A stretch of DNA of 64,000 nt from Pyropia yezoensis (taxonomy: Eukaryota; Rhodophyta; Bangiophyceae; Bangiales; Bangiaceae), in assembly GCA_009829735.1 (NCBI GenBank), contig CM020619.1, forward strand, positions 18,357,816 to 18,421,815, written 5' to 3'. Position 1 is the first letter of the stretch; each line of letters starts with the position of its first letter. Positions 4,748 to 61,018 of the stretch are shown in pieces. Both the position numbers and the translations under genes were made by a program. The notes beneath the pieces are model-generated. The model worked only from the letters and a program-made list of their open reading frames with translations. It searched no databases and was not told the DNA's origin.

Positions 4748-5686
4748 TCAATACTGCCATCCGTACATGACGCTCCACACCCACTCCCGCACCGCCTCCA
4801 CCCGGGTATACACGTTGGGAAGGCCCTTGACGCACGTCAGCCCCCCCGCCTCCTGGAGCCAGTAGCTCGCCACCCCAAACAGCTGATACACGTTGGCCCC
4901 CTCATACTTGTACACCTTGAACAGCGGGCCGCCCATGTCACGCTCGCATAGCGTGACGCTCGCGCTCTTCTCCACGTTGGTGCACACCTGCGCCGCGGCC
5001 GCCACCGGGATGGGCACCTGGTCCGTAAACGCCTTGCACGTCGCCCACGGCGTCAGCGGCTGTGTTCCCACCTTGAGTGACAGCGACCCCGCCGCCGCCG
5101 CGTCGGCCGACACCGCCCCAAAGCCGGCCACCAGAAAGTCGGTCGGCCGTGGGCTGCCAGCCTCTTCCGTCCACCGCCACCCGTTCATACGGACGGGCAC
5201 CACCCCCGCGGCGAGGTACGTTTCCTCAGACGGCGGCTCTGCAATGCTCACCACCGCCACGTCGTACAGGTCCCCCAGCGCCGCGTACTTGGGGTGCGCC
5301 GTCACCGCCGCGACCTTGACCTCCAGCCCCGAAAACAGGTCCGCGCCGCCCACCCGCAGGAGGTCCCCCACCTCCACCCCACACCCGGCGCGCGTCAGCA
5401 CATGGCCAGGCCCAACGAGGGAGCCGCCACAGTAGTAGCCGTTGCCGTCCGGCGTGAAGAACTTGGTGAAGAACACCGCTCCCGTCTTCGCGTCCTTGTC
5501 GGACACCACCCGCCCACCAACGAGGCGGGACCGCCGCGCCGGCCGCCGCGCGGCACTCACGTCCACCGCATTCGCGCGGCCAGCGTTGCCGAGGGACAAC
5601 GCCTGTGCGGCGGCGGGGGTGGCGGCCGAGCCGGCAGCGACGGCTGTGGAGGCGAGGAGGGCGGCGGCAGCGGCGACAAAGCCCAT
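4748..5686 (-). CDS. secreted trypsin-fold (S1) protein, catalytically dead
   Basis: I take the ATG at 5684-5686 rather than the longer open frame, because it begins a signal peptide (M-G-F-V-A-A-A-A-A-L-L) and gives 312 residues, normal for an S1 protease with a short propeptide. The chymotrypsin fold is clear: R-L-V-G-G at the mature N-terminus, the C-G-G-S-L-V strand, Y-D-V-A-V-V around the catalytic Asp, and a C-terminal P-N-V-Y-T-R-V-E helix. Two of three catalytic residues are changed. The T-A-A-H-C motif reads T-R-A-G-C, so His is Gly (codon 5394-5396), and G-D-S-G-G-P reads R-D-M-G-G-P, so Ser is Met (codon 4934-4936). Structural cysteines are kept. The frame is intact, so I read it as a selected pseudoprotease (binding or lectin-like role) rather than a pseudogene; that is inference. 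Confidence 0.85.
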   Translation of the reverse strand: MGFVAAAAALLASTAVAAGSAATPAAAQALSLGNAGRANAVDVSAARRPARRSRLVGGRVVSDKDAKTGAVFFTKFFTPDGNGYYCGGSLVGPGHVLTRAGCGVEVGDLLRVGGADLFSGLEVKVAAVTAHPKYAALGDLYDVAVVSIAEPPSEETYLAAGVVPVRMNGWRWTEEAGSPRPTDFLVAGFGAVSADAAAAGSLSLKVGTQPLTPWATCKAFTDQVPIPVAAAAQVCTNVEKSASVTLCERDMGGPLFKVYKYEGANVYQLFGVASYWLQEAGGLTCVKGLPNVYTRVEAVREWVWSVMYGWQY

Positions 5687-8316
5687 GGTGAGAGGGAAAA
5701 AGAGAGGGGGAAAGTCAAAGGCGTGGGCAAGGGGGGGGACTGGAAAGGGCGGGCAGAAAGATAAGCGGGGGGAAGTGTGGCGAGGGAAAGACCGCTCCGC
5801 GACAACAGGGAGGTGATGGCAGGTTGGGCGGGCGGGTCGGACAAGGTGAAAGTGTGCTGCTGGTGGAGGGTGGAGGCAGAGGCGCTCACAGCCACAGTGT
5901 CGGCGCCTCATATGAACCGCCACACACGCCTGCAGCTGAGCATGGAGGCCGCCTGCCACGCGTCGCGGGCGCCTGACCTCCCCCAGCTACGCTCGCTTCG
6001 CCGCCCGGCCGGTAGCCGACGCCCCCGTCCTCGGACGCGCGTGCCTCGTACCGCCACACCCACCACCGTCGCCCTCCGCTCACAGTGGTCGCCAACCAAC
6101 CAGACCGCAATGCTGGCCCCCCGCCCCCACCCGTCTAGACTGTCACAGGCACGGCGGAGCGACCGAGGGCCACCCGTGCCTGCACGGCCTGTGCCCCCCC
6201 CCCCCCGATCCCCCCCAACTGCAGCAAGCCGCCACCGCAACGACCGCACCACCGCCGCCCCACCTACTCAGACGACACTGCTGCGGCCACCGGCGCCGCT
6301 GCAGTCGCCACCTCGGTCACCGCTGTCACGGTCACCCGCCCGCCCCGCCGGCCCACATGCCAACCCCGACGGCGGCGGAGGTAGCGGCGGTGACGGGGAC
6401 GGTGGTGAGGGGAACAGCGGCGGCGGCGGGATTCACGCAAGGCGGTCCCTGCATGAACGGGGCAGTCACCGACGTCGCCCCCGGTGACCCCGTCATTGCC
6501 GCCCCGCAGCGGAGAGCGGATGCGAGAGGTCAACGGGCACGGGCGGGCGCAGAGCAAGGGGAGGAGGGGGTCGGGGAGGGGGGGAGGGGGGGGATGGTCA
6601 AGTTGGGGGGGGTGACAGGAAGCAGGGGGGGGGGGGAATGTGAGGGGGGGGGTGCCCACCGAAGGGCCATGGCAAGACGTCAGAACCACATGCAGGGGGG
6701 CGGGCGGCCAAGGGCTGCACGTCATCACACTGGGCGAGAGGGTGCGCGGGTGCGTCGGTGGCAGTGACAGTATGGTTGCCACTGCCACCGACGCACCCGC
6801 GCACCCTCTCGCCCAGTGTGATGACGTGCAGCGCCGGCACGTCGGGTAGTTTGTGGCGTGGGAGGTCAGGAGGCCAAGGTGGCCACCCGCACGCGACCCT
6901 GCCTCCCACGTCCTCCCCCCCACCTCCCCTCTCCGCCCTTGTTCCCCCCCGCCACAGCACCAGCCGGTCAGCCTCGCGAGGGCAAGACGCACCGCAATAG
7001 GCGCGCACACGCAGGCAGCGTCATGGGTGGGCGCCGTGGCAGCCGTCCGCCGCGCACATTCCGCACGCCAAGCCGCGGGATGTGCCAGCTGCCGAGGACG
7101 ACACAACGGTGACGCGCACCTCGAGGGCGGCCGTTCGGAAGCGCGGGGTGGCTCTGCCGCTGGCTCCCCGTCTTGACACGCACACCCACGCGGCGCCGTG
7201 CTGGGGCTGTCCATTTGCCGTCCACCCCAAAGCAGTGTGCTTTTTGTGACCACCAATGTCATTGGAGACGACTGAAAGGAAGCGGCTCTGGCATAAAATA
7301 TGTACGCGAATCAAGACATGATCCAGCGCGGATGGGATCGCCAATGAAATGACCGCTTGCTGCGGTCCGACACAATTCTTCGTCTACAGTTTTGTTTGGA
7401 ATACTGATTATTCGGGTCCCGTCCCTGATTATTTGTCGGCTGCCGCGCGGCGGGGCGCGCGGCAAGCCGAGCGAAAGCGGGCGGGACGCGGCCGCAGCGG
7501 CGCCCGTTGGGCGTATCCTTCGCCGGTGCACCGGCGCTGCGCCACGTCCGCCTGCCGCCCCCGCCCGTGCGTTTGCCGCTTGTGGTGGAACGCCGCCATC
7601 CACGCCTTTGGGAGAGGCAAGACGGCGGCAGACACTGCCAGGTCGAACAGGAAGGCACGTTGTCACTTTCTCGTCTGCTGCCACCCGGACACGGTCGCTC
7701 TGAGAATGCTCTCTCAGGACTGGCTTCGCCTTCCAAGATCATGAATTCCCGCGAGATGTAGGTACAGCTTTCCGCTGTGGGCTCCACAGGCCGATCGCCC
7801 GTCCTCACGCCTCTTCTCTTGACATTGTCACCTCCTGTCGTAGCACCAAAGCCGCCCCTGAACGCCGGCCCTACGGATCCACCCACACACTTCCTCAGTC
7901 CAAACTCCTCCCAACGCTGCCGCTGGCTAGCTGTCCCCTCACGGACACGTGCTGCCGCCGTCCCCCATCAACCATTCAATGGTACGCGTTTCCCGCGAGA
8001 CTTAAACGAAATCAATCAGGCGGGCTTGCTGGCCTTCCGGGTGGTGCCCGCTGAGTTGGAGTCGGTCCAGAGCACAATGGTTGTGGCGGCGAATACGGCC
8101 TCTGGCAACGCCACAGGGCGAGGGGCCGTCTGCAGGAGGGTATGTGCAGCGCCGTCTCCGAACGATATAGTACGATTGACTGAACAGCTTCACCCCCCAC
8201 CCAGAGTGACGCTGCCCCAGTCCAACCAATGACGGGTGCATCAGATGGCAGCCTGGGTCTCACGGCAAGCGATTGACTGCCCCCCGCCCACCCCCTCCAC
8301 TCCCCACAGCCGTGTG
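5687..8316. other. intergenic with one strong hairpin
   Basis: No gene recognised. Frames on both strands are Pro/Arg low complexity. The one clear object is the perfect inverted repeat at 6714-6832. Bases 6540-6660 carry purine-rich G runs. Bases 7240-7420 and 7960-8060 are less GC-rich and may be regulatory or transposon remnants. Confidence 0.5.
6714..6832. repeat. perfect 53-bp inverted repeat, 13-nt loop
   Basis: The left arm is 6714-6766 and the right arm 6780-6832. The arms are exact reverse complements over 53 bp, separated by 13 nt. Either strand would fold into a long, fully paired hairpin. It could be a young MITE, a foldback element or a hairpin RNA precursor. No target duplication is obvious at the edges. 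Confidence 0.9.
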
Positions 8317-19414: not shown

Positions 19415-19416
19415 TA

Positions 19417-19535
19417 TTGTGCGTCCTGTAAAAAGTGGACGTGCACGGGTCGTGCAGTGTGGGTTTGATTGGTCCAGTGGCCGGTCTTTGACATGATCAC
19501 GACACGTGCACGTCCACTTTTTACGGGACGCACTA
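19417..19535. mobile_element. 119-bp TA-flanked MITE, copy 1
   Basis: The terminal inverted repeats start T(T/A)GTGCGTCC and continue through a CGTAAAAAGTGGACGTGC-type arm, pairing over about 30 bp per side. TA dinucleotides flank both ends (19415-19416 and 19536-19537). Length and most internal bases match copy 2 at 52209-52327. TA duplication with short TIRs fits a Tc1/mariner-derived (Stowaway-like) MITE. No coding capacity. Confidence 0.88.
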
Positions 19536-19537
19536 TA

Positions 19538-50164: not shown

Positions 50165-52027
50165 GGAAGGTGGAGGGGAGGTGGACGGGAAGGGGGGTAA
50201 GCGTAGCGCACCAACCGGTCGGGATGCGTGACGTCAATTGGCGCGGACGCTGCAGGGGCTGCCCATACCGACGCGCTCGGTGTAGGCGGCGCGATGGTCA
50301 CTCTTGTACTGCACCGCGCAGCTGAGCATGCAAATATCCAAAGTCAAAGCACAACCGGTCTAGATATGCGAGCGCTTAGCCAGGGGGGGGTAGGCCAGGA
50401 CCCGAGAAGCAGCACGCTGTCATGCTTTCCTCCTCCACCCCAACGGCCGTGTGAACGCCACCCCAACGGCCGTGTGAGCGCCACCCCAACGGCTGTACGA
50501 CCGTCGCCGACCATGGCTGCTTCGGACAGCACACCGTCGCGACAGGGGCCTGCATCATGCCATCATGGCCTAACGATGGCTTTCAAGCCATGGAGAACGT
50601 CGATGGCGAGAGGTACACAGGCAGCATGCCAACGGAGAGCGTCTTGCGCGCCACACAGGGGGACCCCTCGGCCGGGGCATTCCTGCTAACCCGCCAGCAG
50701 CCGCGACTGATTGGCTGGCCCTGTCACACAACCTCTGTGACGCTGTTCACGAGGCGTTGGTGCGGAACCGCTACCCGCTCCCAAAGCGCGGTGCGCGCAA
50801 AGGTCATGGACGTCCTCTACAACAGGATTGCCTGATCCCGACACGGCAGTCTCATGTCTCTCTACCCGTAGTCGACGCCCGTCGCGTGCCCTGCAGGCGT
50901 GCGGCCGCGAGTTCCGCTCGGCGTAAGGCCGCTCTGGCGACGCAGATGGGGAACAATGCCTTCGCTCGTCGCCTTCCCCGCTCCAATTGTTGGGCCAAGA
51001 AGGGGGCGGGACAAGCTGGACTCCACACGCTCGAAGTCATGTGCATCACCTTGACCGTTGCAACGGTCCAACCACCTACCACGGAGGGAGGAGTAAGGCT
51101 CCGAGACAACAGCAACAGCGTACGTTCCCGAGTCATTACACACGCAAAGCGCCTCCTCATGTAGTTGAAGTGTTTGGAACTCAGTCAGACCTCGGGCTCT
51201 TGTCTCTAGTGTATGTAAGGCACCTGCACGAAGGGGCGGGCTGAAGTCGACCGGAACAAAGCTGATTGACCAACTCTGGTCTTTTCTTGCCTGCTTGGTC
51301 AGAGGCCGTGGGCGCATGTACAATACCTCTACCAAGTGGTTGGTAGGGCGCCACTGGGCAGGTGATCGGCCAGGATGGACACTCGACGGACGGGCTCGTG
51401 GCCCACCCGCTGTCCCCGTCCACGCCAGGGCGCTCAAGGGCGGATGATCGGACAGGATTGGTACTCGACGGACGGACGGGTAGGCCATCAGCCAGGGGTT
51501 CACCGTCCACGCCAGGGCACCCGCTGGAGTAGCGCATTACCACGGTGGGGGAGGGGTGACAGCGTGAACAGGCTCTCAAGGCGATGCTATTGATAATGGC
51601 ATGAGCACGTTCCACGGTCCTTTCTTATTGAGTGCAAAGGGGCGCTCCCGTACAGTGGGCAGGTGGGCCACCTCGACGGCCAGTGGGGTCGGTCCATGGG
51701 AGAGTCTCTCATCAATTGGCCATTGCCTTGTGCACGAAGAGACCTAGAATTGAGGTTGTATCTAGCGACGACTGTCGTCGCAGCGTCCGCTGCAAGTGTC
51801 GCGCGCACCTCCCATCGAGTCTTCGCGGTCCCCGGAGCAAGAGCGGTAGGCGCAGCGTCGGCGGCACCAATGGCAGCGGTGATACTGGCCGCATGGGCGG
51901 CATCGTCCGCGTCTACCACAGGCGGCCAAGCTGGGCCATCCGCTTCGTGCCTGCTCCTCGCGCCGCGGGCGGTGACGACGGCGCAGGGGGGAGGCGCGCG
52001 CCTGCCATCTGGAGGAAGCCGTCTACA
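50165..52027. other. intergenic with small tandem repeats
   Basis: No gene recognised. A ~20-bp repeat CCACCCCAACGGCCGTGTGA occurs about three times at 50450-50505. A ~85-bp tandem pair (shared TACTCGACGGACG and CCGTCCACGCCAGGGC words) lies at 51365-51530. Confidence 0.45.
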
Positions 52028-52797
52028 GCGCAGCACAGCTTATCGCCTGTCAAACTTTTCTTGCTTTTTTGGGAAATTCTCGAGCAAAAACCTGCATAAA
52101 ACCTGCATTGACCCCCCCTCAAGGCATCATAGACACCGCTTTTCCCCCCTCTTCTTGCTTTCTGCCTATAACAGCTCGGGCGATTGGTGGTCACCACCTC
52201 CCTTGGTATTGTGCGTCCCGTAAAAAGTGGACGTGCACGGGTCGTGCAGTGTGGGTTTGATTGGTCCAGTGGGCGATATTTGACATGATCACGACACGAG
52301 CACGTCCACTTTTTACGGGACGCACTATAAGACCGGAAGCGCACGGGGCAGGAGAGCACTCTCGTGAAACGCAAAGAAGCGACCGACCATCGCTGCACCT
52401 GGGTGCAATGTTTATACAATCGCGTTTAAAAACCGCGCAATCTCTCGCACTGGTTAAGCAAAAACCTGCGCGACGATAGCTTTCAAGGGTCTGCTTGGAA
52501 AAATCTCTCCACCTTGCTCGACATCTACGGCGTCAATTCTGACCAATGGAACGCTCTATCCAGCATACAGCAGCGCCACCGCTGTTGTCATTGGTTGACA
52601 GAACACGGACAGCGGCCGTCGTGTCGGTCATCCTGGGGGAGATTCTTTGGCCTCAGCCCAGCCCCTCGATCAGAAAAGCAAAATCGTTCTCGAGCTGATC
52701 ATTTTCGTGCTCGAGCAGGGCAAGAATTCGCACAACGAAGCAAGAGATCTGGCCAAAATCGGGCTTGTATCTTGACAGGGGATAAGCAGTGCTGCGC
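52028..52797. mobile_element. 649-bp TIR element, copy A (MITE inserted)
   Basis: The ends are inverted repeats starting GCGCAGCAC(A/T)GCTTATC and running into CCTGTCAA. The copy measures 770 bp, which is 649 bp plus the 119-bp MITE and its duplicated TA. It aligns along its length with copy B (60370-61018) apart from the MITE. No transposase frame is visible, so it is non-autonomous. No convincing target duplication at the edges. Superfamily unknown. Confidence 0.85.
52209..52327. mobile_element. 119-bp TA-flanked MITE, copy 2 (nested)
   Basis: Flanked by TA at 52207-52208 and 52328-52329. Copy B of the host element has the unoccupied site (CTTGGTATGACCGG near 60543), which proves the insertion and its boundaries. 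Same length as copy 1 at 19417-19535. Confidence 0.93.
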
Positions 52798-55476: not shown

Positions 55477-55992
55477 CAACGTCAGCTTCTCTCGCACAAT
55501 AGGGAAAGCCGGCGGCGATAGGACTGGCGGCGGTCGCCGCGACGCCTCCCGACTGGAGGCCAGTCCTCCCGCTTTCACGCACCCCTCGAAAGAGGGGCGA
55601 CGCACATCCCCTCTGCGAGAAGGCCGCCGAGCGTCTGCAGCAGTTCAGTGAAGAGCTTATGTTCTCGGCGACTGCTCAAGGAGTATCCCAACAGACTTTG
55701 TACGAGGAGCGTGCTCCTCCGAGCGTAGTGTGCTCTGTACAGACGACCATCCGAAGGGCGCCCCCTCTCACTTCCACATTTCTCTACTGTTTTCCCGCCT
55801 CTGGCCGTACGCGGTCCGACGTGACACCACGCCCACAGGTCGAGAAAAACATTCCTTACTCAAAAAAAAGAATCACTCGACTAAAATCCGATTGTCTTCG
55901 GAAAGCCTGGTCGATCATGCAGAGCGGTGCACCAGGGCTCGATCAATGGAAGCCGCCCCCCCGACCAAGGTGGGAGGCTCGCACCGAAGCTC
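55477..55992. other. region 3' of Fanzor with stable hairpins
   Basis: It contains a 9-bp stem AGGACTGGC / GCCAGTCCT (55520-55528 with 55559-55567) enclosing smaller stems, then CCCCTC-GAAA-GAGGGG (55582-55597), a perfect 6-bp stem with a GNRA-type loop on the plus strand. In Fanzor/TnpB elements the guide RNA comes from sequence at and beyond the nuclease 3' end, the position of this segment relative to the minus-strand Fanzor. The GNRA loop would be on the other strand, so the link is speculative. Confidence 0.35.
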
Positions 55993-58900
55993 TCAAGAGC
56001 CGCGCCGTACCACAGATGAACTTGGCGACGATTGCCCGGTTAGTGGTCCGGCTCGTCGCTGTGCAGGTGGGCCTCGAGGGACCACCACCCGCTTCCCTGC
56101 CAGGTCGAGGTTAGTCATCGCCTGACGGGAGCTGGTGGGGCCTCCACCCTCCACGTCCGTCTTTTCTGCTTCCGGGGGGCCCAGCGCCGCAGCGCCCGCC
56201 CCTGTGGCGGTCGACGGCAAAGGCTGCGGCACCAGCAGGTGGTCATCCCCGGCCTCGTCCGACGCGTCCGACTCGTCCGACTCATCCCCGTCTTCACCTT
56301 CGTGGTCAGCATCGGGGGCGCCCGCCGCCGACGCCTCGCCCGGGGCTGCCCCCCCCCGACGCCGCGGTGCCCACGAGTTGACCGTGTCTCTTGACCAATT
56401 GTAGTCGGGCCCCGGCGGGGGCCCTGCCAGCGGCCGGCGCACGTGACATCCGGGGAAAAAGGGTGCCTTGTTGCCCCCCGACAGCTGGGCAGACGCGGCC
56501 TTGAGGATGTTGCGCGCCACGTTCTTGTCCCGGTTGAAGTACGTCACCAGGCAGCTCACGCAAACACACTTGCGGGCCATCCACGCGGCGGCTCCGTTAC
56601 GGCCCGCCGCCCGCTTGACCAAGGCAACAATGGCCTTGAACCGCTCCGTCGCCTACGCATCATCGAGCGCCCGGGTCTTGTCCCGCTTGACCGCGTCCCA
56701 GCATGCGCCGCCGCGGCGACTCTGGGTGCCGCGTCGGCACTTGGCGGCCTGCCGCTGGGGCTTCACGACCTTTGCGCCCCCTTCCGCCCCGTAGGGCTGG
56801 GTTCTTGCCTCTTCCAGCGTCGCTCCGTTTGTCACCTGCCGCAGGTCGGCTGGGGAGCGCGGCGTCGGGTACACGTTGACTACCCGGTTGTTGCAGCCCG
56901 CGCACGCAGCGGACGTGTTAAGCTCGCATATTCGAACCGCGTACATGTCCCGTCGGGTGTGCCGGTCCAGGTACACCGCCCCTCCGCCCGTGACGGCCAC
57001 CCCTCACGCCACGAGCGCGACTTGGCCGTTGGCAATGCGGCGGCCGAGCCCGCCCGTCCGCTCCAAAGCAAACTGGCGGGCAATCCGTTTGCGATGCGCA
57101 TGGCGGGGCAAGCGCGCCTCGCGCAGCGGCCTCGTCGCGTCGGTGCCATACACCGCCAGGTACTCTGCAGTGTCCCGCAGCTTGACCTCCGCATGTGCGG
57201 CAGCCCACCTCGCCGCGTCGCTCCCGACCTTGAGCTTCGTCGCCGTCACGCGCTCGTGCAGGGCCTTGTACACTTTCGCGTCGCGAGCTGACGCGCAATC
57301 AGCCTGCAATCGACTCATCATGCCGCCCCCGGCGCGCTCACGAAAGGAAGCACCCGACACGGCGTAGGTGGCGCCCTCCGGGGGGCACGCCGGCGGACGA
57401 CGACGCTGCCCGTTGGCAGCTACAGCCGCCACAGGCACCAGAGATGATGGCGGAGGTGTGGCACCAGCAGCACCAGCAGCATCGGCAGCGACAGCCAGCT
57501 CTGCACAGGCAGTGTCAATGACCCACTCCGCACAGGCAGTGTCAATAACCCACTTGTGGGCGCTAGTGCCCGCAAAGTGCTCCCGCATTTGCCACCGCTT
57601 GGCAGCCTTCTCCTCGCGCCGAGCCGTCGCAACCACCTCGCGGCGGTATTGTGGGGGCAGTCCGGCTTGGATCACCAGTCGCCGCCGGCTGCGGGTCCTA
57701 GCATGGAAGTTTGTCCCCGGCAAACACCCTGGATGCTGCTTGTCCACTGGTGCCGATGCTGCTGCCCTAGGCCCCGGCGGCACCTCATTGGGTCCGGCAG
57801 CGGCCACCACGCCTTGGCCACCATCGTCACCGTCACCCTCATCTTGACCGCCGCCACCGCCACCTTGACCTCCTCCACCGCCACCACCACCGCCGTCGCC
57901 GTCACCGTCGCCGCCGTCGCCGCCACCGCCGCCACCACCGCCGCCACCACCACCACGGCGCTTGCGGCGCTTGTCGGGCGGCCGCCCGTCTGCGCCTCGC
58001 CCCCCGCCAGTACCGGCACCACCAGCCGTGCCCGGTGGTTGTGGCTTTGGCGGCGACCGGCGCTTGCGGCTCCCTGCCCGCCGCGCAGGCGGCTGCAGGC
58101 AGGCGGGCAGGGTCTTCCGCAGCTCTAGTACTTGAGGTTCAACCTCGGCCTGCTGCTGCGCATCGTTCCCCATCGCTGCAGCCGCCAGCAGCGTCAAGGC
58201 AATGGCAGCCCGCAGTGCGGCGTGACACGCCACCAGCACCGCCTCTTCCCGCCGGTGAGCGTGTATTCGTGCGGCGGGCACAAAGTCCAACGGCTTGGGC
58301 CCGTCTGATATTGCAGTTGCTACCCCATTGTTGCCCGGGTCCAGCCCCATCATACACACCAGGACCGAGGCGTCGCTCAGGTCCAATCCCATCGCCGCCA
58401 CTTGGGATTCGATGCTGGGCGCAGCGCCGCCCTGGCGCTTGGCCCCCATCCTGCGCCGCACGTGCGCCGTCGCCGCGGCCACCGTCTCGGCGGCCGTGGC
58501 GGGGTAGGCGTCGACGAAGACAATGCCCGTCCAGTCTGAGAGCACAGACGTGCGAAAGGCGGTCTTGTAGGTGCCCACCCCCGCCATGCGCACCAGGGCA
58601 CGCACCGCGTCGGCCTTGGCCGGCCCGGTGCCGCCGAGCCCACGGTGCACCGCCTTTCAGCGGCCGTCGCCGGCGAGGCCGGCTGCGTGAATCGCGGTAC
58701 GCAGCAGCGAAGGCGTCACGGCGGTGTTGCGACACGTGTAGGGGTGTCCCCTCTGAAGGATGCGGACGGGTGCCACGCCCCACGCGGCCAGGGCTGGCTG
58801 CACCTCGAGCAGCAGGGGTCAGAAGTACTGCCAGCACGACGCGCGCTGATCTTCCCCGAGGGTTATGGCCAGCACCGGGGCCGCACCACGCGTGCTTCCT

Positions 58901-59448
58901 GGCCGCACCTGCCTGCACAGGTATCGCTCAAAGGCGCTGGCCATGGCGTTTTGAAAGAGCGCACGCGCCGGGACTGGAAACTCTTGCGGCCAGACGGCGT
59001 CCCGCACCTTGACCGCGCCCGCGAACAGCGCCGCCGCCACCTTGGAAGCGGACTTTTCCTGTAGATTCTTCCTCTCTGCGGCGTCCCCAGGCAGGTCGCC
59101 GGCGGTAGGCGGCACCGCCTTGAGGGCGTCGTCGACCAGCACGCCCGCCAACCGCTTGATGGCCGGCGGCACCGCCCGGGCCACGACCATCGCGGTCGTT
59201 GTGGCCACCGTCGTGTACGCGGCCTTGCCGCCAGGTAAGGGTACGTTCCTGCTGCACGGCATGTCGGTGGCGCCTGCAAAAGCGTTCGCAGCGTCTGCAA
59301 ACGCCTCCCAAAACCCCGCGTGGTGGGCCTTGTTCACCGACGGCAAGTAGCGCTGGCCGTCGTGCTCGCAGGGACACGCGGCACCCACTCGCGCGGCCGA
59401 CGACCGTCCATCCCGAAAGGCGCCTTTGCACGAAATTACCGCCGCCAT
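55993..59448 (-). pseudogene. Fanzor (eukaryotic TnpB-like nuclease) relic
   Basis: The frame is open from 59544, with the first ATG at 59446-59448, and runs to 55993. It is one reading frame broken by TGA (58819-58821), TGA (58657-58659), TGA (57004-57006) and TAG (56653-56655). Family marks in order: K-A-V-H-R-G-L after the second stop; RuvC-I M-G-L-D-P-G-N-N-G-V-A-T (Asp codon 58339-58341); a Gly/Asp-rich insert; Y-G-T-D-A-T-R-P-L-R and H-R-K-R-I-A-R; E-L-N-T-S-A-A-C-A-G-C (Glu 56923-56925, Cys pair 56893-56904), matching the E-x-x-T-S-x-x-C-x-x-C signature; the second Cys pair C-V-S-C (56551-56562); and RuvC-III N-R-D-K-N-V-A-R-N-I-L (Asp 56527-56529). Fanzors are RNA-guided DNA endonucleases carried by eukaryotic mobile elements. 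The catalytic residues remain but the stops should abolish the protein. Region 57004-58650 also carries a direct duplication of V-I-D-T-A-C-A-E. Confidence 0.85.
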
Positions 59449-59490
59449 CCACTGCCACCCGCCCGCCGTGGCGTCGGTCAGGTCGTCAAG

Positions 59491-59755
59491 GTCAGCAGAA
59501 CAGGGGGAGGAAAGAGGGGGAGGCCCCGCGACGGCTTTAAGCACGTCAGCAGAACAGGGGGGGAAAGAAGGGGAGGCCCCGCGACGGCTTTAAGCCCGTC
59601 AGCAGAACAAGGGGTACAAAGGGGGAGGCCCCGCGGCGGCTTCAAGCACGTCGGCAGAACAGGGGGGGGGAAACGGGGAGGCCTCGCGACGGCTAGGAGC
59701 ACGTCAGCAGAACAGAGAGGAGGCGGGGCAGTCTTTTCTTGCAGGCCCCGGCGGC
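59491..59755. repeat. ~53-bp tandem repeat, five copies
   Basis: GTC(A/G)GCAGAACA starts units at 59491, 59545, 59598, 59650 and 59703. Each unit contains GGGGAGGCC(C/T)CGCG and ACGGCTT. It abuts the 5' end of the Fanzor frame on the minus strand. Confidence 0.88.
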
Positions 59756-60369
59756 GGGGAATGGTCGCGACGGGCCTCTTCCGGCCCTTTTTCCTCGTCG
59801 CCCTGATTCTCACCGGGGCCGGCGTCTGGATGGCGGGGGAGGGGAGTGGACGGGTCGCACCGCGCCCCCCCCCCGCCCCCTTTCCCCCCCGCCCAGAATT
59901 GCCCCCCCCCCCCCACCCCCTCAAACACCGCCGTCTGGACGGGGGAGAGCGGGGGGGGGGAGACCGGTCGCGTCGCCGCCGCCCCCCCCCCGCCCCGCCC
60001 CACCCCTCCAAAACGGCACGACGCCCAGCGTCGTGCGTGTCGTGACAGGGAGGATGTGGGGACCGGTCGCACCGGGCCCCCCCCCCGCCCCCTTCCCCCG
60101 CCCCCCTGATTCGCCCCGCCCCACCGGACCCCCCCAAGACGGCCCCGTCTGGGTGGGTGGGGGGGCATCGTCGCGTTCGCCCCAAGCCGAAATCGCCCGC
60201 AGGTTGTGTTGAGGCAGCGATGCACGATGGGCCTTGATGGGGCCGCGACAATGGAAGCCCCCCACAGGAAAAGAGGGGGCTGATAGCAAAGCTTTGCACA
60301 CAGAGCAGGACTTCGTCATTAGTGTGACTGTAATGAACTCCCAAGTGCGAAACACCCAACACCAACACA
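59756..60369. other. C-run-rich imperfect repeats
   Basis: No gene. Two or three imperfect ~100-bp copies of GGTCGCACCG...CCCCCCCCCC blocks (59850-60150), then a less GC-rich stretch up to the TIR element. Confidence 0.5.
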
Positions 60370-61018
60370 GCGCAGCACTGCTTATCGCCTGTCAAACTTT
60401 TCTTGCTTTTTTGGGAAATTCTCGAGCAAAAACCTGCATAAAACCTGCATCGACCCCCCCTCAAGGCATCATAGACACCGCTTTTCCCCCCTCTTCTTGC
60501 TTTCTGCCTATCACAGCTCGGGCGATTGGTGGTCGCCACCTCCCTTGGTATGACCGGAAGCGCACGGGGCAGGAGAGCACTCTCGCGAAGCGCAAAGAAG
60601 CGACCTACCATCGCTACGCTTGGGTGCAATTTGTATACAATCGCGTTTAAAAACCACGCAATCTCTCGCACTGGTTAAGCAAAAACCTGCGCGACGACAG
60701 CTTTCGAGGCTCTGCACGGAAAAATCTCCCCGCCTTGCTCGACATCTACGGCGTGAACTCTGACCAATGGAACGCTCCATCAAGCAAACAGCAGCGCCAC
60801 CGCTGTTGTCATTGGTTGACAGAACACCGACAGCGGCCGTCGTGTCGGCCATCCTTGGGGAGATTCTTTGGCCTCAGCCCAGCCCCTCGATCAGAAAAGG
60901 AAAATTCTGCTCGAGCCGTTCATTTTCGTGCTCGAGCAGAGCAAGAATTTGCACAACGAAGCAAGAGATCTGGCCAAAATCGGGCTTGTATCTTGACGGA
61001 GGATAAGCAGTGCTGCGC
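60370..61018. mobile_element. 649-bp TIR element, copy B (empty site)
   Basis: Starts GCGCAGCACTGCTTATC and ends with its inverted counterpart GATAAGCAGTGCTGCGC. Same orientation as copy A and colinear with it, lacking the nested MITE. No coding capacity seen. Confidence 0.87.

Follow-up and report, generated by a model that had tools for sequence, protein, structure and literature searches.

A 64,000-nucleotide stretch of the red alga Pyropia yezoensis (GenBank assembly GCA_009829735.1, contig CM020619.1, positions 18,357,816 to 18,421,815 of the forward strand; hereafter the window) carries on its minus strand a feature that, judged from its sequence, is very probably a dead, 5'-cut copy of a transposon-borne gene of the Fanzor1 type, within the Fanzor/TnpB group of RNA-guided nucleases. 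We place this copy in a family that we call A, which shares its diagnostic residues with three further families of the same genome, B, C and D. Taken alone, the window copy is an ordinary decayed element; the interest lies in an oversized Fanzor1-like family that bears a Cys-Cys-His-Cys (CCHC) pattern and has a young, many-copy branch.

Reading frame and diagnostic residues

Translation of window positions 59544-55993 on the minus strand gave a single frame of 1,184 codons with 4 internal stops and 0 frameshifts, whereas 23.6 stops are expected in a frame of this length at 69.3% GC; the remaining five frames of the stretch contain 10-25 stops each. Asp-Pro-Gly (DPG), E-x-x-T-S-x-x-C-x-x-C, a second Cys pair and N-R-D-x-N-x-A-R-N-I follow one another in this order, all within the one frame (Table 1). 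An initial annotation, made from the letters of the window, had read an ordered set of Fanzor/TnpB residues in one minus-strand frame, and each residue that it quoted was located there. It had also called the copy dead, which agrees with its truncation at 59489 on the 5' side and with the four stops inside the frame. Its description of the genome as red-alga-like fits Pyropia yezoensis. The frame is present between its limits of 55993 and 59448 and runs on to 59544, and homology to other copies spans 59489-55942. The large Gly/Asp insert that it placed in the RuvC region is present in the window copy as a low-complexity expansion, and a four-family alignment shows no counterpart to it in the proteins of B, C and D. 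A reading of this insert as a protein domain was rejected, as it consists of low-complexity tandem repeats.

The genome was searched across 107.5 Mb in 11 contigs. The C-terminal 1,001 bases of the window copy matched four other long copies of family A at 89-91% DNA identity, plus several pieces. A protein piece from another locus matched 30 genome places, which we assigned to family B (22 rows), family A (7 rows) and family D (1 row); in this search, the family-B piece matched the window with E=1.2e-29 and 42% identity over query residues 2-180. One copy of family D was found in the genome. N-terminal searches with B and A pieces reached family C, and the N-terminal half was found to be kept in several B copies and in one other long A copy, L063.

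According to Yoon et al. (2023, PMC10711439), Fanzors have DPG in RuvC1 and a Glu six residues before the zinc finger, TnpBs typically have theirs about 50 residues upstream, and Fanzor1 proteins carry a TDG motif in the WED domain. An alignment with a single protein from every family keeps D-P-G, the block E-x-N-[TS]-S-x-x-C-x-x-C, a further Cys pair and N-R-D, with D, P, G, E, the Cys residues and N-R-D in invariant columns. DPG is present in the window copy, in B31 (family B), in L068 (family C) and in D, and is altered in some decayed copies (L047, L037, L067 and L063). The initial annotation had noted that the Glu adjoins the zinc ribbon rather than standing in a TnpB-style place, and this extends beyond the window copy: E.N[TS]S..C..C, with the Glu six residues before the zinc finger, occurs in all four families, in the one protein tested for each. 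Upstream of RuvC-I, the TDG motif reads VTDGTG in B31 and STDGVA in C, with TNG in D and B30; in family A, its place is taken by SDG (L063) or SDW (window copy). From its position, this place may correspond to the WED domain. In the families tested, a four-cysteine (C4) zinc finger is followed by RD within 5-50 residues, the second Cys pair being Cx4C in B and D, CxxC in C, and readable either way in the window copy.

Comparisons with profiles and structures gave a fainter picture. PF07282 (Cas12f1-like_TNB) was the best Pfam family for the tested proteins of B (E=2.2e-4), C (0.01) and D (0.012), and a whole-genome search with it gave 9 weak matches, with 7 in B copies, 1 in a C copy and the ninth, at C3:19714592, outside assigned copies. 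In HHalign comparisons with seven TnpBs, namely E. coli InsQ and relatives from viral contigs, the segment from the second Cys pair to NRD aligned with P=6.2e-4, and TSQxCxxC with P=0.003.

Several results weigh against a Fanzor assignment. None of the 9 whole-genome matches lay above the Pfam cut-off, the PF07282 matches of the B, C and D proteins all fell below the curated cut-off, and the HHalign probabilities were low, at 28% and 10%, respectively. Pieces of the window copy gave no TnpB match in Pfam; the significant TnpB/Fanzor profile match by which the initial annotation proposed to check this copy did not appear, and the link runs through its relatives. Searches of solved structures returned chance-level matches, with TnpB-like L79, LaTranC or Cas12m chains among them (E 0.7-1.5) and most of the others being designed repeat proteins, antibody linkers or further chance low-complexity matches. 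The proteins searched had no match in NCBIfam or PHROGs, and in a scan of viral contigs 56 stretches fitted a pattern, with 0 confirmed as relatives. Two AlphaFold models were unusable (predicted local distance difference test scores, pLDDT, of 38.8 and 34.3), and gave no structure on which to place the RuvC triad. Furthermore, the spacer from Asp to [TS][TS] measures 474 residues in the window copy, 404 in C, 409 in D and 402 in B, outside the published D-X(125,275)-[TS][TS], a range that describes the 2013 Fanzor/TnpB set (Bao and Jurka, PMC3627910). Given the weak profile and fold results, the case is built on residues that stand in order, at diagnostic positions, in four diverged families. 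The DPG and Glu position common to these families, the TDG of B31 and C, and the concentration of weak PF07282 matches in B and C copies support the Fanzor-type reading of the initial annotation.

An alternative would be a transposon protein of another kind, whose zinc ribbon and RuvC-like motifs arose by convergence or reflect very remote kinship. Weak direct profile matches, low HHalign probabilities and unusable models would suit such a protein, as would the unusual spacings and the CCHC patterns, which recall gag proteins. We consider this improbable, because the four families have in common an ordered DPG, alternative Glu at the Fanzor position, TS or SS, C4 and NRD, TDG stands upstream in B31 and C, and each of the three relatives tested has PF07282 as its best Pfam family, with the weak genome matches of this model concentrated on these families. 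More doubtful still is the acquisition by the alga of a Fanzor2 or of a cyanobacterial-type TnpB (IS607 lineage): DPG and the alternative Glu also mark Fanzor2 and pro-Fanzors (PMC10711439), but the large size, and the TDG motif that is reported for Fanzor1, speak against it. A chance pattern in GC-rich DNA, where long open frames are common (69% GC), is excluded by the E=1.2e-29 match to an independent family-B copy, the four long DNA copies at 89-91% and the residues invariant across four families.

Table 1. Features of the probable Fanzor1-type copy and its surroundings in the window
Feature	Window position	Strand	Basis
Family-A element remnant	55942..59489	minus	DNA similarity to further copies; sharp 3' limit 55942-55944, 5' start 59489 against L063
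Single 1,184-codon reading frame	55993..59544	minus	translation, 4 internal stops, no frameshift
Internal stops of the frame	58821-58819 TGA; 58659-58657 TGA; 57006-57004 TGA; 56655-56653 TAG	minus	
Terminal stop of the frame	55995-55993 TGA	minus	
S-D-W-T-G at the place of the Fanzor1 WED 'TDG' motif	58525..58539	minus	comparison with other copies
RuvC-I Asp of D-P-G	58339..58341	minus	alignment of families and translation
Gly/Asp-coding low-complexity expansion, RuvC-I to RuvC-II	57847..57956	minus	tandem repeats
Alternative RuvC-II Glu (E-L-N-T-S-A-A-C-A-G-C), six residues ahead of the first zinc Cys	56923..56925	minus	alignment
Zinc-ribbon Cys pair 1, CxxC	56893..56904	minus	alignment
Zinc-ribbon Cys pair 2, C-V-C-V-S-C, readable as Cx4C or CxxC	56551..56568	minus	alignment
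RuvC-III R-D of N-R-D-K-N-V-A-R-N-I-L	56527..56532	minus	translation; Asp of N-R-D at 56529-56527
Putative omega-RNA-like 3'-terminal region: two hairpins and a possible outer stem reaching the element 3' terminus	55943..56016	minus	18-copy alignment, pair counts
53-bp minisatellite, 4.2 copies, abutting the broken 5' end	59491..59715	not assigned	repeat detection

Relatives of the window copy and their architecture

The initial annotation had taken the window copy to imply active relatives and proposed a genome search for intact ones; several members of these Fanzor1-type families do have open frames in the same genome. In family C, L068 with L077 contains an open frame of 1,455 codons, giving 1,393 residues from the first ATG. 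When a 3.7-kb family-C probe was used, 40 places were scored out of 181 candidates. At least 3.4 kb of the probe is covered at 35 of these 40 places, query included, and the remaining 34 show 93-98% identity with the query copy. Sixteen rows of the N-terminal search were read as family C, 14 of which lie at places also listed for the 3.7-kb probe; the frame is open for at least 1,445 codons in 9 rows and measures 481-1,065 codons in 7. Open frames are also easier to keep in GC-rich DNA, and any activity of these relatives remains a prediction. Between copies within families, the ratio of nonsynonymous to synonymous substitution rates (dN/dS) was 0.33-1.21, leaving out a misaligned comparison of the window with L011 (63 codons), and this range looks like mostly neutral decay.

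Three further observations concern individual copies. A near-full-length copy of family C lies at G000:C2:18287131-18290826, approximately 67 kb before the start of the window. Two family-B fragments located 5.3 Mb apart, L026 (C3:11156812-11160357) and L027 (C3:16454502-16458047), give an identical match (100% to the query, with the same 420-codon frame), which suggests either that the region was duplicated recently or that the assembly contains an artefact. L014 (match 5749-6030) and L015 (match 4927-5152), both in element orientation, are 230-280-bp pieces with only the family-A 3' end.

At 1,393 residues, the family-C protein is about twice the usual Fanzor1 size, most Fanzor1 proteins being described as having 600-700 residues (PMC11423790), and no solved chain matched it significantly. 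CCHC patterns occur near the N terminus, one in C and two in B31. The first 333 residues of L068 had no Pfam match, so the family-C pattern is read from its residues, and the zinc-knuckle Pfam match of family B was below the cut-off. The two zinc Cys pairs are separated by 96-110 residues.

Element ends, the 3'-terminal fold and 5' losses

Families A and B have a common terminus, ...GGCT[TC]CCATTGA, and the exact 19-base B terminus occurs 15 times in the genome versus 0 for a reversed control. Family C ends in a different sharp terminus, ...CCGATAGT. A probe starting 5.6 kb before the 3' end of L068 matched from its first or second base in 40 of 40 scored rows (of 154 candidates); the family-C element is therefore longer than 5.6 kb. 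Among the points against the Fanzor1-type reading, neither a 5' end nor a transposase was found in the copies followed, and no search aimed at a serine recombinase was made. A second Fanzor-type 3' terminus (AGCTTTGCTATCAGCCCC...GGGGGGCTTCCATTG) was observed on the minus strand at window positions 60247-60320, upstream of the relic and with 2 mismatches to the A/B terminus. It is probably the tail of another lost element.

We examined whether the last 100 nucleotides of 18 A and B copies keep a fold predicted from B31. Across the 18 copies, 88.7% of cells are paired, compared to 44-56% in slid versions of the structure, and 19 cells have a two-sided change, compared to 7.2 in shuffles, with 0 of 500 shuffles as high. 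Three results do not favour a conserved fold: 50 of 500 shuffles had at least as many pairs with a two-sided change (5), 477 of 500 had at least as many pair types (16), and the window copy's own 3' end folds no better than shuffles (z -0.39). Because most two-sided changes separate A from B, they amount to few events. An RNAalifold consensus has 22 pairs, 3 of them with a two-sided change, and keeps the hairpins without the outer stem. In single-sequence folding against shuffles, B31 gave z -2.89 and family C, weakly, z -1.84. For the outer stem alone, shuffles were as good 44 times in 1,000 for C (98 in 1,000 without its variable last base), 321 times for B and 328 times for the window copy; owing to these counts, the outer stem is not evidence by itself. 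Collectively, these data partly support the A/B fold as a candidate omega-RNA-like scaffold. With two hairpins inside a terminal stem, it resembles the Fanzor1 RNAs with three stems that Yoon et al. describe (PMC10711439).

The window copy has no N terminus: its homology stops at 59489, next to the start of a 53-bp minisatellite. The starting points vary among the remaining A and B copies, and 8 of the 15 listed 5' points, which include B31 although it is not a break, end in CA. In our reading, most 5' losses would be due to insertions of other repeats. The absent 5' parts of A and B copies could instead reflect one-ended, Helitron-like transposition, an explanation that we regard as rather unlikely. 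Sharp 3' ends, variable 5' ends and 3' hairpins are compatible with it. B33, the one insertion examined for a target duplication, showed none. There is also a precedent in the Chlamydomonas Fanzor Helitrons CRe-1, -2 and -3, which likewise are described as having common 3' ends with hairpins and 5'-shortened copies (PMC3627910). However, no helitron 5' end or RepHel was seen in the Pyropia elements, over the parts short of their 5' ends. The CA endings are those that a TG...CA-ended repeat would give, the repeat adjoining B30 encodes a zinc-knuckle, gag-like frame on its opposite strand, and B36 and A16 have matching N-terminal pieces approximately 9-12 kb upstream on the same strand, all of which argue for inserted repeats.

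Repeats were observed near these copies. A repeat of approximately 2.5-3 kb (L010 1349-4388 and L057 1-2623; 93% identical over 2.5 kb) lies upstream of one family-A and one family-B copy, and its opposite strand encodes a zinc-knuckle (gag-like) frame. Within the window, positions 52025-52797 and 60367-61018 hold repeat copies that are 93-98% identical and have inverted ends (GCGCAGCAC...GTGCTGCGC). This repeat is likely a terminal inverted repeat (TIR) transposon; we rejected the two copies as long terminal repeats (LTRs) flanking the relic, as their ends are inverted repeats. The copy at 52025-52797 carries a 123-bp insert that is also found at 19415-19537 and in L014.

Comparison with known Fanzors and a possible mechanism

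A Fanzor1 is already known from a red alga, CMe-1A of Cyanidioschyzon merolae (Bao and Jurka 2013, PMC3627910). As in Pyropia, that account describes many decayed copies, some intact protein and an undefined transposon class. Compared by description, the CMe-1A element is approximately 3 kb long, with copies about 80% identical to their consensus, whereas family C of Pyropia spans at least 5.6 kb and, among its scored copies, the near-complete ones share 93-98% identity with the query. SpuFz1, GtFz1 and PpFz1 are described with a catalytic layout that the Pyropia residues would match, consisting of an Asp, a Glu placed between strand five and the TNB domain, and a third residue on a helix, together with a C4 zinc finger (PMC10432273, PMC11423790). 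PpFz1 also has a RuvC insertion, FRI, of about 100 residues (PMC10432273, PMC11423790). Family C differs in its length of 1,393 residues, against 600-700 in most Fanzor1 proteins, and has an N-terminal CCHC pattern. The TnpB of IS200/IS605 (E. coli InsQ family, L079) aligns by profile at TS-x-x-CxxC, the second Cys pair and Asp-x-Asn, with low probability. InsQ has 402 residues, and the TnpB Glu, typically about 50 residues upstream of the zinc finger (PMC10711439), differs in place from that of the Pyropia families. No published Fanzor in Pyropia or Porphyra, and no Fanzor with a zinc knuckle, was found in the literature searched, which leaves out most subscription papers.

By analogy with published Fanzor work, a working relative of the window copy would make the nuclease and a short RNA from its own 3' end. 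The 3'-terminal fold would serve as the scaffold, and host sequence just beyond the 3' end would be the guide. The RuvC centre (Asp, alternative Glu, Asp) would then cut matching sites, such as the empty site left by transposition, and we propose that such guide-matched cutting would favour the keeping or copying of the element. The window copy itself is no longer capable of such cutting.

It is quite possible, if somewhat short of probable, that Pyropia hosts a distinct giant Fanzor1 lineage, with proteins of approximately 1,400 residues, N-terminal CCHC knuckles and a split zinc ribbon. Family C would have spread recently and may still move, with a three-stem 3' guide RNA in which the element terminus forms the last strand, and a multicellular red alga would then be the native host of dozens of nearly identical genes for RNA-guided nucleases. 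The known Fanzor design would be broadened by proteins that are twice as large as usual and carry additional knuckles for binding nucleic acids. What part Fanzors play in the hosts that carry them is described as little known (PMC10711439). If a red seaweed under cultivation has a Fanzor family that is young and rich in copies, several with open frames, then guide RNA production, target cutting and spread would be measurable in a native multicellular host.

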